A stretch of DNA of 47,510 nucleotides from the NCBI GenBank assembly GCA_018057705.1, contig JAGPDF010000008.1, positions 1 through 47,510 of the forward strand. The letters run 5' to 3'. The stretch is from Thermoanaerobaculia bacterium (GTDB lineage: Bacteria > Acidobacteriota > Thermoanaerobaculia > Multivoradales > JAGPDF01). Made by a program: the position numbers and the translations under genes. Of this stretch, positions 10,903 to 20,376 are shown piece after piece (within the stretch, counting starts at the first letter, position 1; the number at the start of each line of letters is the position of its first letter). Below the pieces are notes generated by a model. The model had not been told where the DNA came from. It searched no databases and worked only from the letters and a program-made list of their open reading frames with translations.

Positions 10903-13179
10903 ATGCGCAAGTCGATCTTCGCCCTGCTCTTCCTCTGCGGCAGCATCGTGGAGGCGCAGCGCCTCCATCCGATCCTCTTCGTCACCCAGACGCCGATTCC
11001 GTACGACTTCACGGCCATCGGCTCGGTCTTCGGCAACCATCGCGCCGACCTGCAGAGTACCGGGCGCGGCGGCGACCTCTATGTGCTCTACCCGAACGGC
11101 ACGCTGAAGAACCTCACCCAGCTCGGCGGCTACGGCGTGGCGAGCGGATTCCAGGGGGCGACCTCGATCGCGGTGCGCGAACCGGCGGTGCACTGGAACG
11201 GCACCAAGGCGGTCTTTTCGATGGTCATCGGCGCGCCGATCCAGCAGTACGCCTGGGGGACCTATTACTGGCAGCTCTACGAGGTGACCGGGCTCGGGAC
11301 CGGAGATCCGGTGACGATCACCAAAGTGCCGAACCAGCCGCTTCTCGCCAACAACGTCAGCCCGGTCTACGCGCCGGACGGGCGGATCCTGTTCACCTCG
11401 GACCGGCCGCGCGACGGCCGCGCCCACCTCTACCCGCAGCTCGACGAGTACGAGGAGGCGCCGGTCGTCACGGGACTCTGGAGCCTCGACGCGGCGACCG
11501 GCGACCTGAAGCTCCTCGATCACGCGCCTTCCGGGGACTTCAAGCCGACGGTCGACAGCTTCGGCCGCGTCGTCTTCACTCGCTGGGACCACCTGCAGCG
11601 CGACCAGCAGGCCGACAGCGACTACTACGATGTCGTCGCCGGCAATCCGCCGACCTACGGCACGTTCAACTGGTCGAGCGAACGTTCCGACGCGGTCGCG
11701 CTCGCCACCCGGGACGAGCAGTTCCCGGAGCCCCGCGCCGGCCGCGTCGACCTGCTGCAGCCGCATGAGGAAGGGCACAGCTTCAACCACTTCTTCCCCT
11801 GGATGGTGAATCCGGACGGGACCGGCCTCGAGACGCTGAACCACATCGGCCGCCACGAGCTGCATACCTACTTCAACCGGTCCTTCAACAACGACGGCAA
11901 TCTCGACGAGTTCATCTGCGGCGACAACGCCTGCGATCGCTTCAACGACCGCGAGATCTTCAACATGCTAGAGATCCGCGAGAGCGCGATGGTTCCCGGG
12001 CTCTACTACGCGATCGATGCGCCCGAGTTCTACACCCACGCCGCCGGCATGCTCTTCTCCCTGAACGGCGCACCGACCGACCATGCGAGCGAGATGGGAG
12101 TGACCTGGATCTCCCACCCCGACACCGCGGGCTTCACCGCGAGCCCCGGACCCTGCCATTCGGGGTTCTACCGCAACCCGCTGCCGCTCACGACGACGAC
12201 GGGCCCGGGGACGCTGATCGCCGTGCACGCCGGGGAACGAAGCGCCGGCGTGCCCGAGACCCGGCAGGCCGCGAACGACGGTTCGACTGCCGCTCCGGTG
12301 GCGCGCTACAAGTTCCGGCTGCGCAATCTGGTGGCGGCGACGGCGCCCTGCGCCGGCTACCAGAAGTACGGAGCAACCCTCACGCCGGGGATCACCAAGA
12401 CGCTCTGGTACTGGGACCCCGATACGATGGTCACCTACACCAACGTCACCCTGTGGGAGCTCGACCCGGTCGAGGTGCGGCCGCGCACGCCGCCCATCCC
12501 GGCAGTGCCGCCGCTCGAGACGCCGGAAGCGTCGGTGTTCAGCGACGAGCAGGTCGATGTCGCCGACTTCCGCGAGTTCCTCGAGAGTCGCGACCTCGCC
12601 CTGATCGTGAGCCGCGACGTCACGACTCGCGACCGCGCCGATCGCCAGCAGCCGTTCAACCTCCGCGTGCCCGGTGGCACCGCCCAGACGACCGGCGCCG
12701 GTGGAGCGATCTATGACGTGACGCACATGCAGCTGTTCCAGGCCGACCTGATCCGGGGCACGGGTGGCACGGCGAGTCCGCGTCCCGGGCGCCGGGTCCT
12801 GGCGCAGCGCATGCACGACCCGCGGGCGTTGAATCCCCCCCTGCCGCAGGGAGCGCCGGCCGCGAGCGTCGAGCTCGGCGACGATGGCTCCATGGCGGCG
12901 CTCGTGCCGGCCGAGCGCGCCCTCACCTGGCATCTGACCAACGGCACGGGATCGCCCGTGGTGCGCGAGCGCTACTGGCTGACCTTCCAGCCGGGTGAAA
13001 TCCGTGTCTGCACCTCCTGCCACGGCCTCAACACGCTCGATCAGAGCGACCCGGGGAGCGCCGCGCCGCAGAACCCGCCGGAGGCACTGCGGACCCTGCT
13101 GCAGTGGTGGAAGGGCCTGATCTTTGCCGCCCACTTCGAGGACGGCAACACCTCGGAGTGGTCGAGCGCCGCGCCGTAA
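10903..13179 (+). CDS. Secreted beta-propeller protein with C-terminal c-type heme site (hydrazine synthase alpha-like) and DGFE-type tail
   Basis: A 758-aa exported protein. A signal peptide (MRKSIFALLFLCGSIVEA) is followed by a TolB/PD40-like propeller (NNVSPVYAPDGRILFTSDRPRDG) and a C-terminal region with one heme-binding CTSCH (C703, C706, H707) inside an LTFQPGEIRVCTSCHG context. This order resembles the hydrazine synthase alpha-subunit superfamily found in many non-anammox bacteria; no hydrazine chemistry is implied. The last residues, FEDGNTSEWSSAAP, match the tails of two other secreted proteins encoded downstream. GGAGG at 10890-10894 lies 8 nt before the ATG. The gene converges on the GT2 gene with 7 nt between stops. 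The substrate is unknown. Confidence 0.8.
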   Translation: MRKSIFALLFLCGSIVEAQRLHPILFVTQTPIPYDFTAIGSVFGNHRADLQSTGRGGDLYVLYPNGTLKNLTQLGGYGVASGFQGATSIAVREPAVHWNGTKAVFSMVIGAPIQQYAWGTYYWQLYEVTGLGTGDPVTITKVPNQPLLANNVSPVYAPDGRILFTSDRPRDGRAHLYPQLDEYEEAPVVTGLWSLDAATGDLKLLDHAPSGDFKPTVDSFGRVVFTRWDHLQRDQQADSDYYDVVAGNPPTYGTFNWSSERSDAVALATRDEQFPEPRAGRVDLLQPHEEGHSFNHFFPWMVNPDGTGLETLNHIGRHELHTYFNRSFNNDGNLDEFICGDNACDRFNDREIFNMLEIRESAMVPGLYYAIDAPEFYTHAAGMLFSLNGAPTDHASEMGVTWISHPDTAGFTASPGPCHSGFYRNPLPLTTTTGPGTLIAVHAGERSAGVPETRQAANDGSTAAPVARYKFRLRNLVAATAPCAGYQKYGATLTPGITKTLWYWDPDTMVTYTNVTLWELDPVEVRPRTPPIPAVPPLETPEASVFSDEQVDVADFREFLESRDLALIVSRDVTTRDRADRQQPFNLRVPGGTAQTTGAGGAIYDVTHMQLFQADLIRGTGGTASPRPGRRVLAQRMHDPRALNPPLPQGAPAASVELGDDGSMAALVPAERALTWHLTNGTGSPVVRERYWLTFQPGEIRVCTSCHGLNTLDQSDPGSAAPQNPPEALRTLLQWWKGLIFAAHFEDGNTSEWSSAAP

Positions 13180-16216: not shown

Positions 16217-17653
16217 ATGACTCGAGCTCCCTACGCCGCGCTGCGGTCGCTGTCGATCTGGACCTGTCTCGGCACCGTGTGCGCCTTCTCGGTGGCGCCT
16301 TCCGCACTGTTCGGCGCCACCGAGTGCTACACGGGGTCCTGCACGGCGACCTGCACTCCCGACGCGCCCGCCGCGGTGTCGACCCTCGTCTCCGGTTTCC
16401 CCGGGGTGAACGATACGCCGATCGCCTTCGTCGATCCGGCGGACAATCTGCGGCACCGCTTCGTCGCGACGCAGGAGGGCGTGATCTTCGTCTGGTCGGG
16501 CGAGACGCAGGCGCTGCTGCCTGTGCCCTTCCTCGACCTCACTTCCACGGGTCTCAACAAGGTCCTGTACGGCGGTGAGCGGGGGCTCCTCGCGATGGCC
16601 GTGGAGCCCGACTACCGGACGACCGGCCGCTTCTACGTCTATTACACGCGGGTCTCGGACGGCGACATCGTGGTCGAGCGCTATCAGCGATCGACCGGCA
16701 ATCCGGATGTCGCCGATCCCGCTTCCGGGACCGTCATCTTCCGCATCGACCATCCGGCGACCAACCACAACGGCGGCCAACTGGCGTTCGGTCCGGAAGG
16801 CTACCTGTACATCTCGACGGGCGATGGCGGACCGCAGTGCGACAACGGCGCGGGAGTCTCGGGAGACGGCCAGAGCCCGGGCACCCTGCTGGGAAAGATC
16901 CTGCGCATCGACGTGCGCGGGGTGGATCCGACTCCCGCCGCCAATGAGTGCAGCCTCGACGCCTCCAACTACACTGTCCCCTCCGACAACCCTTACGTCG
17001 GCCAGGCGAGCGCGTGCAACGAGGTCTGGGCGCTGGGCATGCGCAACCCCTTCCGCTTCACCTTCGATCGGGACACCGGCGACCTCTACCTGGGCGACGT
17101 TGGACAGAACGAGTGGGAGGAGATCAACCTCATCCGCGCTTCGACCCCGGCACCGGCGAACCTGGGCTGGGTCTGCCGCGAGGGCTGCCAGTCCTCGTTC
17201 GCCTCGTCGGGCTGCTCGAACACGGGCTGTCCGGCGGATAGCGGCAGCACCTGCGAGTTCCCGCGCGCCAGCGGATTCTGGGATCCGATTCTCTGCCACC
17301 AGAACGCCCCTTGGGTCTCGATCATGGGCGGCTACCGCTATCGCGGCCAGCAGGTACCGGTCAATGCGGGCCGGTATTTCTACGGCGACGCCGCTTGCGG
17401 ACAGGTCTGGGCGACCAACGACTTCGACGAAACGAATCCGGCAGCCATCTCCTCCTCTTGTTGGTTGAGCGGGTCGTCGAACTTCGGCTTTGGCGAAGAC
17501 CATCTGGGCGAGCTCTACATCGTGCGCGGCGCCGCCCACGTCGTCAGCTGCATTCACAACGGGCAGGGCTGCTACTGGGCGCGGTGGGGCGGTCTCTTCG
17601 AGGACGGTTTCGAGACCGAAGCCACCTCCCGCTGGAGCTCGAGCGTCCCCTGA
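16217..17653 (+). CDS. Secreted PQQ-dependent aldose sugar dehydrogenase-like protein with DGFE-type tail
   Basis: A 478-aa exported six-bladed propeller of the soluble glucose/aldose dehydrogenase (GSDH, YliI) family, which oxidises sugars using pyrroloquinoline quinone. A signal peptide of about 35 residues ends near ALFGA. Family motifs are GGERGLLAMAVEPDY, YYTRVSDGD, NHNGGQLAFGPEGYLYIST (catalytic His region), LLGKILRIDV, RNPFRFTFD and GDVGQNEWEEI. Many cysteines suggest disulfides. AGGAG at 16204-16208 lies 8 nt before ATG 16217, which decides against ATG 16196. It ends with LFEDGFETEATSRWSSSVP, the tail shared with two neighbours. Its stop overlaps the next ATG (TGATG), so the two are coupled. 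Confidence 0.88.
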   Translation: MTRAPYAALRSLSIWTCLGTVCAFSVAPSALFGATECYTGSCTATCTPDAPAAVSTLVSGFPGVNDTPIAFVDPADNLRHRFVATQEGVIFVWSGETQALLPVPFLDLTSTGLNKVLYGGERGLLAMAVEPDYRTTGRFYVYYTRVSDGDIVVERYQRSTGNPDVADPASGTVIFRIDHPATNHNGGQLAFGPEGYLYISTGDGGPQCDNGAGVSGDGQSPGTLLGKILRIDVRGVDPTPAANECSLDASNYTVPSDNPYVGQASACNEVWALGMRNPFRFTFDRDTGDLYLGDVGQNEWEEINLIRASTPAPANLGWVCREGCQSSFASSGCSNTGCPADSGSTCEFPRASGFWDPILCHQNAPWVSIMGGYRYRGQQVPVNAGRYFYGDAACGQVWATNDFDETNPAAISSSCWLSGSSNFGFGEDHLGELYIVRGAAHVVSCIHNGQGCYWARWGGLFEDGFETEATSRWSSSVP

Positions 17654-18939
17654 TGTCGGCGCGCCGGATCGGCGGCGGGTGGCTGGCGGCGGCGCTGCTC
17701 GCCCCGGCCGTGGGGGTCGCTGGCGTCGTTCCTGTCGCGACGCCGGTGCAGCTCATCGCCGCGATCGACAGTGCGGCGCCCGGCGACGTCATCACGCTCG
17801 CGGCTGGCAAGTACGACATCTCCCAGAACCTCCTCTGCGATGTCCCCGGAACGGCGAGCGCGCCGATCGTCGTGCGCTCCGCGGTGCCGCTCGGGGCGCT
17901 GATCCGTTTCGACGCTGTGGAGGGCTTCAAGGTTTCGGCGCGCCATTGGGTTTTCGAGGATCTGGACATTCAGGGCGTCTGCGCCGATCACTCCGACTGC
18001 GAGCATGCCTTTCACGTCTTCGGCGACGCCGACTTCCTGCGGATCCGCCGGTCGCGCCTGCGCGATTTCAATGCCCAGATCAAGAGCAACCGGGATCCGG
18101 ATGTCCTCGTGTTTCCCGACGACGTGGTGATCGAAGGCAACGAATTCTCCGACAGCGCGCCACGCCAGACCGGGAATCCGGTCACCAAGATCGACGTCGT
18201 CGGCGGGCGACGCTGGATCGTGCGGGCCAACGTCATCCACGACTTCGAGAAGGCCCTGGGCGACCACATCTCGTACGCCGCGTTCCTGAAGGGAAACTCG
18301 CGCGACGGGCTCTTCGAGCGCAACCTCGTGATCTGCGAGCACGACCACGCCGGCGGCGTCCGCCTGGGTCTTTCGCTCGGCGGCGGCGGGAGCGGCCCGG
18401 ACTCGATCTGCGAGGACAGCACCTGCACGCCGGAGCATCAGGACGGCACGCTGCGCAATAACCTGATCGTCAACTGCCCGGCCGATGTCGGGATCTACCT
18501 CAACGAGGCGCTCGATACCCGGATCTACGACAACACGCTGATCGCGACGACGGGCATCGACGTGCGCTTCACGGCTTCGACCGCGGATATCCGCAACAAC
18601 CTCGTCTCGGGGCAGATCCGCAACCGCGACGGCGGCACCTCGACGCAGAGCGCCAACCTCACCGGTATCACGACGCCGCAATATGAGCAGTGGTTCGCCG
18701 ACCCTCTCGCCGCCGACCTCACCCTGCTCGACGGCACCGCCTTCGTCGACCTCGCCGAGCCGCTCATCGCAGTGCCCGACGACTACTGCGGAAGATCCCG
18801 AGGAGCTACGCCTGACCGAGGCGCCGTCGAATACGGTGGGACGATCTGCGACACGACCCAAGCCGGCGGGGGAAGCGACCTGTTCCGCGACGGCTTCGCC
18901 ACGGGCGGCACCGGCCAATGGTCCGGAGTCGCCCCGTAG
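17653..18939 (+). CDS. Secreted right-handed parallel beta-helix protein with DGFE-type tail
   Basis: A 428-aa exported protein. A signal peptide (MSARRIGGGWLAAALL, ending near GVAG) precedes a parallel beta-helix of the PL6/chondroitinase-B-like type: LIAAIDSAAPGDVITLAAGKYD is the classic first coil, followed by RWIVRANVIHDF, NNLIVNCPADVGIYLNEA and IYDNTLIATTG rungs. The fold is used by polysaccharide lyases and binding proteins; the catalytic residues of PL6 are not obvious, so activity is open. The C-terminus LFRDGFATGGTGQWSGVAP matches the tails of the upstream dehydrogenase and the 10903 protein. Its ATG overlaps the previous stop by one base, so the two secreted proteins are probably made together. 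Confidence 0.85.
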   Translation: MSARRIGGGWLAAALLAPAVGVAGVVPVATPVQLIAAIDSAAPGDVITLAAGKYDISQNLLCDVPGTASAPIVVRSAVPLGALIRFDAVEGFKVSARHWVFEDLDIQGVCADHSDCEHAFHVFGDADFLRIRRSRLRDFNAQIKSNRDPDVLVFPDDVVIEGNEFSDSAPRQTGNPVTKIDVVGGRRWIVRANVIHDFEKALGDHISYAAFLKGNSRDGLFERNLVICEHDHAGGVRLGLSLGGGGSGPDSICEDSTCTPEHQDGTLRNNLIVNCPADVGIYLNEALDTRIYDNTLIATTGIDVRFTASTADIRNNLVSGQIRNRDGGTSTQSANLTGITTPQYEQWFADPLAADLTLLDGTAFVDLAEPLIAVPDDYCGRSRGATPDRGAVEYGGTICDTTQAGGGSDLFRDGFATGGTGQWSGVAP

Positions 18940-19095: not shown

Positions 19096-20376
19096 TTACC
19101 GCCGCCAGCGGGCCGAGATGGAAAAGACCTGGGCACGGGCGCTGTACGTGCCAGGGTCGGGAACGGGGTAGTTGTAGATGTTGGCATCGCGGTCGTCAGA
19201 CTGATGGAACGAGTAGCCGACGTCGAACGAGAGTCCGGGGAGATTGCAGGAAGCGCCGAAGGCCACGACGGTCGTGTCGCCCTGGGAGTAGCCGGGCTCG
19301 AGTGTTTCCTCGGGCACCGGGCTCGGCTCGAAGGCGAGGCCGCCACCCAGCGCCCACATCGGCGAGAGCTTCCATTCGGCGCCGAGCCGCAGGCTGAGCA
19401 CGTCCTTCCAGTCGCGGTCGCGTTGGATCGCTGCTGGGCAGCAGGGGGAGAACGGAAGATCGCCTGCCGTATCGATCGAGGTGCGGTCGAGCGCCGACCA
19501 ACCGCTCCAGACGACGTCTCCCTCGAGCTTCAGGCTCTCCGTGATTCCCCACCAGACGCCGATCGATGCCGTGGGCGGGAGCTCGAAGTTCATGTTTACC
19601 GCGGAGGAGGCGAACCGGCGGTTGAAAGCGGCCTCGACCGCGGGGTCGCTGATCGGTTCGCGCGGGAAGGTGTCCATGTCGCCGCCGCCGTCGAGCGAGA
19701 CTCCGGTGCCGAACACCGCTCCCCAACCCCAATTCGAGGCGCTGTACTGGACGCCGAGGTCGAAGCCGATTCCGTCGACCTGAGATGCCGCCTGCGTTTC
19801 CGCTTCCACGAAGTGCAGGTCCTCGAATCCGAAGATCTCGAGCGTGGCGAAGGAGGTCTCATAGCCGCCGCGCACGTAGCGCAGCGAGCCGCCGAGGCTC
19901 CAGCGTTCGTCGATCGCCCAGGCGAGCGTCGGGCGGAGCTCGAAGAGGGTGGTCTCCTGCCGGATCGTCTGGAAGCGCCCGGGGAAGAGCGCCGTGTCCC
20001 AGTTGGTGATCGTCCAGAACGGCGCGTCGAGGCTGAATCCGAAGGTGAGCGGAACGCCGAGCGCTTCGGGTTTCCAGGTGGCGTAGAGAGCCGGAGGAAA
20101 CTGGATGACGTGGTGGGCCAGGTCGCTCTGGCCCGCGGTGTCGAGCTGGTCCTTCGGCGCCTGAAAGTCGAGGCCGGCCTGAAACTGCAGGCCCTCGAGT
20201 CGTGCGACGCCGGCGGGGTTGTAGCGCACCGCCGAGGGGTCGTCGGCGCGCGCGACGAAGGCGCCGACCTGGGCGGCGCCGCGACCGCCGTGCTGGAAGA
20301 GACCGAAACCGGCGGCGGCGAGCGGAGCCGAGAGCGGCACGAGAACGAAGAGGAGAAGGAGGGCGCGTCGTTTCAT
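19096..20376 (-). CDS. FadL/OmpP1/TodX-family outer-membrane protein
   Basis: A 426-aa outer-membrane beta-barrel of the long-chain fatty acid transporter family, which lets hydrophobic molecules cross the outer membrane. The signal peptide is MKRRALLLLFVLVPLSAPLAAA; the mature N-terminus GFGLFQHGGRGAAQVGAFVARADDPSAV..YNPAG is the conserved hatch region of FadL. Alternating aromatic strands run to the end and the last strand finishes near QVFSISARWRR, with a less usual basic end instead of a terminal Phe. TAGACT lies 9 nt before the ATG without a Shine-Dalgarno sequence. It is divergent from the MscS gene with 46 nt between. The substrate is unknown. Confidence 0.9.
   Translation of the reverse strand: MKRRALLLLFVLVPLSAPLAAAGFGLFQHGGRGAAQVGAFVARADDPSAVRYNPAGVARLEGLQFQAGLDFQAPKDQLDTAGQSDLAHHVIQFPPALYATWKPEALGVPLTFGFSLDAPFWTITNWDTALFPGRFQTIRQETTLFELRPTLAWAIDERWSLGGSLRYVRGGYETSFATLEIFGFEDLHFVEAETQAASQVDGIGFDLGVQYSASNWGWGAVFGTGVSLDGGGDMDTFPREPISDPAVEAAFNRRFASSAVNMNFELPPTASIGVWWGITESLKLEGDVVWSGWSALDRTSIDTAGDLPFSPCCPAAIQRDRDWKDVLSLRLGAEWKLSPMWALGGGLAFEPSPVPEETLEPGYSQGDTTVVAFGASCNLPGLSFDVGYSFHQSDDRDANIYNYPVPDPGTYSARAQVFSISARWRR

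Follow-up and report, generated by a model that had tools for sequence, protein, structure and literature searches.

A short terminal tag on secreted proteins of Thermoanaerobaculia and its apparent origin as strand 1 of a lectin-like domain

What might a common C-terminal tail be doing on secreted proteins that otherwise have nothing in common? The question arises from three genes on the forward strand of the window, the 47,510-nucleotide stretch of a Thermoanaerobaculia genome that was analyzed here. The first (10903..13179, +) is an open reading frame that begins with the signal peptide MRKSIFALLFLCGSIVEA and is assigned by Pfam to the HZS_alpha/PD40 type; the second (16217..17653, +) encodes a protein of the glucose/sorbosone dehydrogenase (GSDH) fold (PF07995, 5.8e-30), for which many genomes of the order have orthologs; and the third (17653..18939, +) encodes a right-handed beta-helix protein (PF13229, 2.9e-7). 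A signal peptide is visible by eye at the start of each. The tails, located by sequence and pattern match, read FAAHFEDGNTSEWSSAAP (13123..13179, +), FEDGFETEATSRWSSSVP (17597..17653, +; supported in addition by a shuffle control) and FRDGFATGGTGQWSGVAP (18883..18939, +), and a proline directly before the stop codon closes all three C-termini (13179, 17653 and 18939). This bears out a preliminary description of the locus, in that the sequences are as written there and the main Pfam domains of the three proteins are unrelated. A homolog of the HZS_alpha/PD40 protein (L233, 57% identity) has a tail of its own.

The pattern given in that description, F-x-D-G-x(6-9)-W-S-x(3)-P, holds up genome-wide (see below) but was set in the wrong register for the protein ending at 13179. 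The FEDG of its tail aligns with the F-E-x-G of the others, not with their F-x-D-G, and once shifted the three tails share one spacing in a frame of 18 residues, F-x(3)-F-[EA]-x(6)-W-S-x(3)-P. Two further features of the gene cluster may be mentioned. The start codon of the beta-helix gene overlaps the stop codon of the GSDH gene in the sequence TGATG (window 17651-17655), which suggests translational coupling of the two tail genes, and a gene for an OMPP1/FadL/TodX-type outer membrane protein adjoins the tail genes (19096-20376, -; PF03349, 2.6e-36).

The tail is not a chance resemblance, because a DNA pattern search of the source genome (5.08 Mb) for F-x-D-G…W-[ST]-x3-P-stop returned 103 matches, a few of them overlaps or contig-end duplicates, against 0 for the reversed pattern, and because 100 dinucleotide-shuffled versions of the window gave 0 matches to the core pattern. 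The genome-wide search of C-termini that had been proposed for this tail thus finds it in abundance. From 109 tails we derived the consensus [LI]-F-x-D-G-F-E-[ST]-G-[DN]-T-[ST]-x-W-[ST]-x3-P, in which F1, D3, F5 and W13 are conserved at 96-100% (F1 and W13 being fixed beforehand by the regular expression that gathered the tails), G4 and S14 at 92%, and P18 at 88%. A mobile element acting at the DNA level was considered as the source of the tail and dropped, as codons vary and residues are conserved. The carriers are unrelated proteins belonging to dozens of Pfam families (43 families matched by 79 carriers in total), and the expected enrichment for signal peptides is present: 92 of 114 tail genes are positive, compared with 129 of 335 neighboring genes (odds ratio 6.7), by a crude rule for which several misses, such as the third window protein, are start-codon errors of the gene caller. 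Four loci of this genome (L106, L111, L119 and L121) encode a longer variant with two cysteines, roughly GDxCxW[ST]…CP, of which FADGFEPGDACLWTAAVGGGCP and FSDGFESGDTCPWSTTVGGGDFCP are examples and which is perhaps a disulfide-closed form.

The tail is not catalogued in Pfam or NCBIfam, nor is it described in the full text of openly licensed papers searched for the motif letters, Acidobacteriota sorting signals and related terms. The closest parallels in distribution are the exosortase-dependent PEP-CTERM and IPTL-CTERM signals, GlyGly-CTERM (rhombosortase; PMC3237569) and MYXO-CTERM (myxosortase; PMC11980579), each a short tag that a genome places on many unrelated proteins with signal peptides and that is patchy in an all-or-none fashion. 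All of these combine a motif with a transmembrane helix and a basic end and are strictly C-terminal. In contrast, the stop codon directly follows the motif in the great majority of our tails, leaving no transmembrane helix and no basic end, and the LPXTG-like arrangement of motif, hydrophobic stretch and basic tail is absent as well. When 33 tails were compared with NCBIfam, no model matched, CTERM and type IX secretion (T9SS) C-terminal models included. The view that the tail is not of the PEP-CTERM/LPXTG kind therefore stands, and at the level of sequence the tag matches no catalogued sorting signal. T9SS C-terminal domains are folded domains much longer than the 18 residues of the tail, and the NCBIfam comparison gave no link to a type IX-like tag, another early suggestion. 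The two are alike in that the domains on Porphyromonas gingivalis and Tannerella forsythia cargo are also C-terminal tags without a helix, on proteins that are secreted and attached to the surface (PMC7468200).

A further difference from the CTERM signals is position. Among the loci of this genome, which were picked from pattern matches and are not a neutral sample, 131 tail copies lie at most 6 residues from the stop codon and 23 lie elsewhere. In eight proteins of the genome (L052, L055, L080, L085, L105, L109, L112 and L114), and in one from another metagenome-assembled genome (MAG; L228), the motif stands right behind the signal peptide. The proline at position 18 is kept in 6 of these 9 N-terminal copies (p about 8e-6 relative to a proline frequency of 7%), and none of the 9 proteins has a second copy at its C-terminus. 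The tag is thus position-flexible, usable at either mature end, and copies behind signal peptides are hard to reconcile with a C-terminal anchor signal that is cleaved. The original idea of a sorting or anchoring signal survives insofar as the tag is shared by secreted proteins, but not as a strictly terminal signal of the C-terminus.

Across 149 genomes of the class Thermoanaerobaculia (Acidobacteriota), the spread of the tail is nearly all-or-none: 44 genomes have at least 10 matches, up to a maximum of 124, 104 have 0-4, and one has 9, as counted with a variable-gap pattern that registers some tails more than once. Both extremes occur inside a single genus (g7), whose members G401 and G246 have 87 matches and 1 match, respectively. 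A first scan of the order found one short exosortase in the tail-rich genomes sampled and none in the tail-less genus g4, a co-distribution that would fit the tail being a substrate tag of this enzyme. The exosortase is XrtH (TIGR04177), and a small membrane gene frequently lies directly beside it. At the level of the class, XrtH fails as a required partner in both directions, draft-genome gaps aside: it was not found in nine tail-rich genomes (G417 with 85 matches, G418 with 76, G409 with 66, and six more) and is present in dozens of tail-less ones. Moreover, genomes with XrtH also encode IPTL-CTERM proteins (6 matches in the source genome), which account for the presence of the enzyme, and the tail is devoid of a hydrophobic helix and also found at N-termini. 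We regard a role as XrtH substrate as very improbable. The XrtH genes (L280-L293, e.g., L280:8256-8964), together with the gene for the small membrane protein beside them, share a recurring pyrimidine-biosynthesis/smc neighborhood.

Another possibility is that an outer-membrane translocon reads the motif, from either end, on folded periplasmic proteins. Carriers with signal peptides need a route across the outer membrane, and the all-or-none spread is consistent with specialized machinery. However, no such machine was found; among 72 genomes of the order, just 1 has GspC, a marker of the standard type II secretion system. In addition, homologs in tail-less relatives that bear surface layer homology (SLH) repeats are exported without the motif. 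An export tag consequently appears doubtful to us.

The same SLH-bearing homologs point instead toward retention at the surface. In the tail-poor genomes G446-G448, GSDH homologs carry SLH repeats at the C-terminus, in the same open frame, at the place where tail-rich genomes have the tail. The SLH domain (PF00395) differs in being a repeat module of about 44 residues, and by genome the two are mutually exclusive: at least 3 SLH matches are found in 0 of 44 tail-rich but 19 of 104 tail-poor genomes (Fisher p 0.0009, kinship not corrected for), and in family f10 tails and SLH alternate by genus. This exclusion at the genome level supports a role in retention, and the tag probably holds proteins at the cell surface.

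Insight into where the tag comes from was provided by the window GSDH protein, with which we searched 72 genomes. Its close homologs in tail-rich genomes, mostly 55-63% identical, keep the tail or a variant. The ortholog from G415 (62% identical) has the motif, as FGDGFESGDTSAWS, at the same place and then continues for about 235 more residues, and in six other genomes (G430, G423, G414, G412, G413 and G420) a C-terminal domain of some 195 residues starts with the motif or with a sequence close to it. A hidden Markov model (HMM) built from three full domains also recognizes ordinary tails, which align to its positions 1-18 (E about 0.001-0.1). In a structure model of the full domain the body forms a beta-sandwich, with a mean pLDDT of 73.6 and blocks that reach 96, the motif region (residues 1-33) stays below pLDDT 50, and Foldseek searches with this model returned ConA-like lectin and lyase folds. 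The domain sequence profile matches the two CBM22 repeats of 4xup at E 0.0047 and places the motif on the N-terminal segment of each, an alignment that favors the motif as strand 1 of the fold. In CBM22/CBM4_9 and ConA-like jelly-rolls (4xup; alginate lyases), an N-terminal segment F..xFE.G....W resembles the tag, and the full-length domain of the relatives is predicted to have a fold like that of ConA-like lectins and lyases; the difference here is that the segment stands alone. By these sequence comparisons, the tail and the opening segment of a C-terminal ConA/CBM-like jelly-roll of tail-poor relatives are homologous, and the tag appears to be strand 1 of a lectin-like domain, detached from the rest. 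The short adhesive fold first suggested for the tail is thereby better read as an apparent detached strand of a lectin-like fold. The early caveat that the pattern might belong to a known domain applies only in part, the domain in question having no significant Pfam match and no recognition by NCBIfam. Two matches obtained along the way were set aside: PDB matches of the tail profile alone are trivial repeats reading EWSLVAP, and a Pfam GPS match on one tail (E 0.027) was taken as chance. The GSDH homolog L332, from the nearly tail-free congener G246, ends differently, and its C-terminal module (…FWFFRPANPEIFIKILDACKDPFNTYWIFAAGLTDL…) is perhaps a further domain that is missing from the catalogues.

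That the tail is homologous to the opening segment of a complete domain is also what one would expect of a relic, that is, a truncated domain stump, or of a peptide that caps the last strand of its carrier, in either case with no partner. Against this stand about a hundred copies on unrelated folds, all in the same 18-residue frame, as well as conservation of the tail in orthologs, its occurrence at N-termini and its all-or-none presence by genome; we consider a relic or structural cap improbable.

A partner is suggested by two genomes of the SLH type with few tails, G447 and G446. In each, a tail-bearing gene for an M12B-type protease ends in …IFSDGFELGTTNAWQ-stop (G447) or …IFSDGFEGGAVPGLWSGKTP-stop (G446), and 13 or 34 nucleotides downstream, respectively, after a gap containing a Shine-Dalgarno-like sequence, there follows a gene for a signal peptide, a jelly-roll without the motif and three SLH repeats. 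In these genomes, then, the two halves of the domain belong to different proteins that are secreted separately, and one of the two proteins is anchored. Such acceptor-like genes (L337 and L338) adjoin tail genes only in these two genomes. We propose that the tag is an 18-residue, position-flexible docking tag that would keep exported proteins at the cell surface; that it descends from the N-terminal segment (F-x-D-G-F-E-x-G…W, strand 1) of the C-terminal ConA/CBM-like jelly-roll; and that it would insert, in trans, into an acceptor jelly-roll from which strand 1 is missing, the inserted strand retaining the tagged protein at the surface. One or a few anchored acceptors might then be enough for all of the roughly one hundred tagged proteins that a genome encodes. 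The main ground for strand donation is the split gene pair. Donor-strand complementation is known from chaperone-usher pili, and split-domain peptide tags are established as well. The likeness lies in a peptide strand that, as we propose, completes the beta-sandwich of a partner in trans; there is no sequence relation to either, and strand completion is here a proposal read from sequence. Taken whole, with surface docking, jelly-roll descent and donation in trans, this is our preferred but tentative explanation, to which we would assign slightly less than an even chance. Its most specific form, a split lectin fold for surface display in which anchored acceptors without strand 1 capture about a hundred unrelated exported proteins by an 18-residue end tag, is possible but on balance unlikely.

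Alternatively, the tag could serve surface retention or matrix binding while being read by an unrelated receptor, be it a protein, a polysaccharide or an LPS-linked molecule, with the jelly-roll reflecting ancestry only. The distribution and the SLH evidence fit this reading equally, the motif region is not confidently part of the modeled fold, and no motif-less jelly-roll acceptor was found in the roughly 0.86 Mb (17%) of the source genome that was covered. An unrelated receptor nevertheless leaves the split gene pair of G446 and G447 unexplained, and we rate it as rather unlikely. A helix-free sorting or docking tag from a little-cultured class of Acidobacteriota would join the catalogue of bacterial terminal signals. 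With the tag as a marker, about a hundred secreted proteins per genome, most of them unannotated, can be recognized at once, and as a peptide tag it is a natural candidate for use at either terminus of a protein.

Named records in which the tail occurs include MAGs of Acidobacteriota, Thermoanaerobaculia and Holophagae, two MAGs labeled Deltaproteobacteria, and the gammaproteobacterium Marinicella litoralis. One of the Deltaproteobacteria-labeled MAGs, P_S1_bin.14, is the same genome as G380 from the window's own order, the two agreeing in contig coordinates and in sequence. Six IMG/VR contigs, filed as viral, encode host-type tail proteins (L247-L252), among them a small signal-peptide protein ending in IFADGFETGNVSRWSAVKP (L252) and a tail open reading frame downstream of an amidase-like gene (L250). 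A search of phages and plasmids with the consensus returned only halovirus proteins, at E about 2; in one of these the motif is internal, at the apparent start of a jelly-roll, and this was the first hint of an origin within a domain. In Marinicella, a looser pattern gave 87 matches compared with 5 for the control. Shorter endings, VIFVDGFDN or IFLDGFEGDVIFKNGYD, occur in two loci of 44% GC that were assigned to Marinicella by G+C content (L257 and L278), and IFxDGF[ED] alone may be the core of the tag in Gammaproteobacteria.
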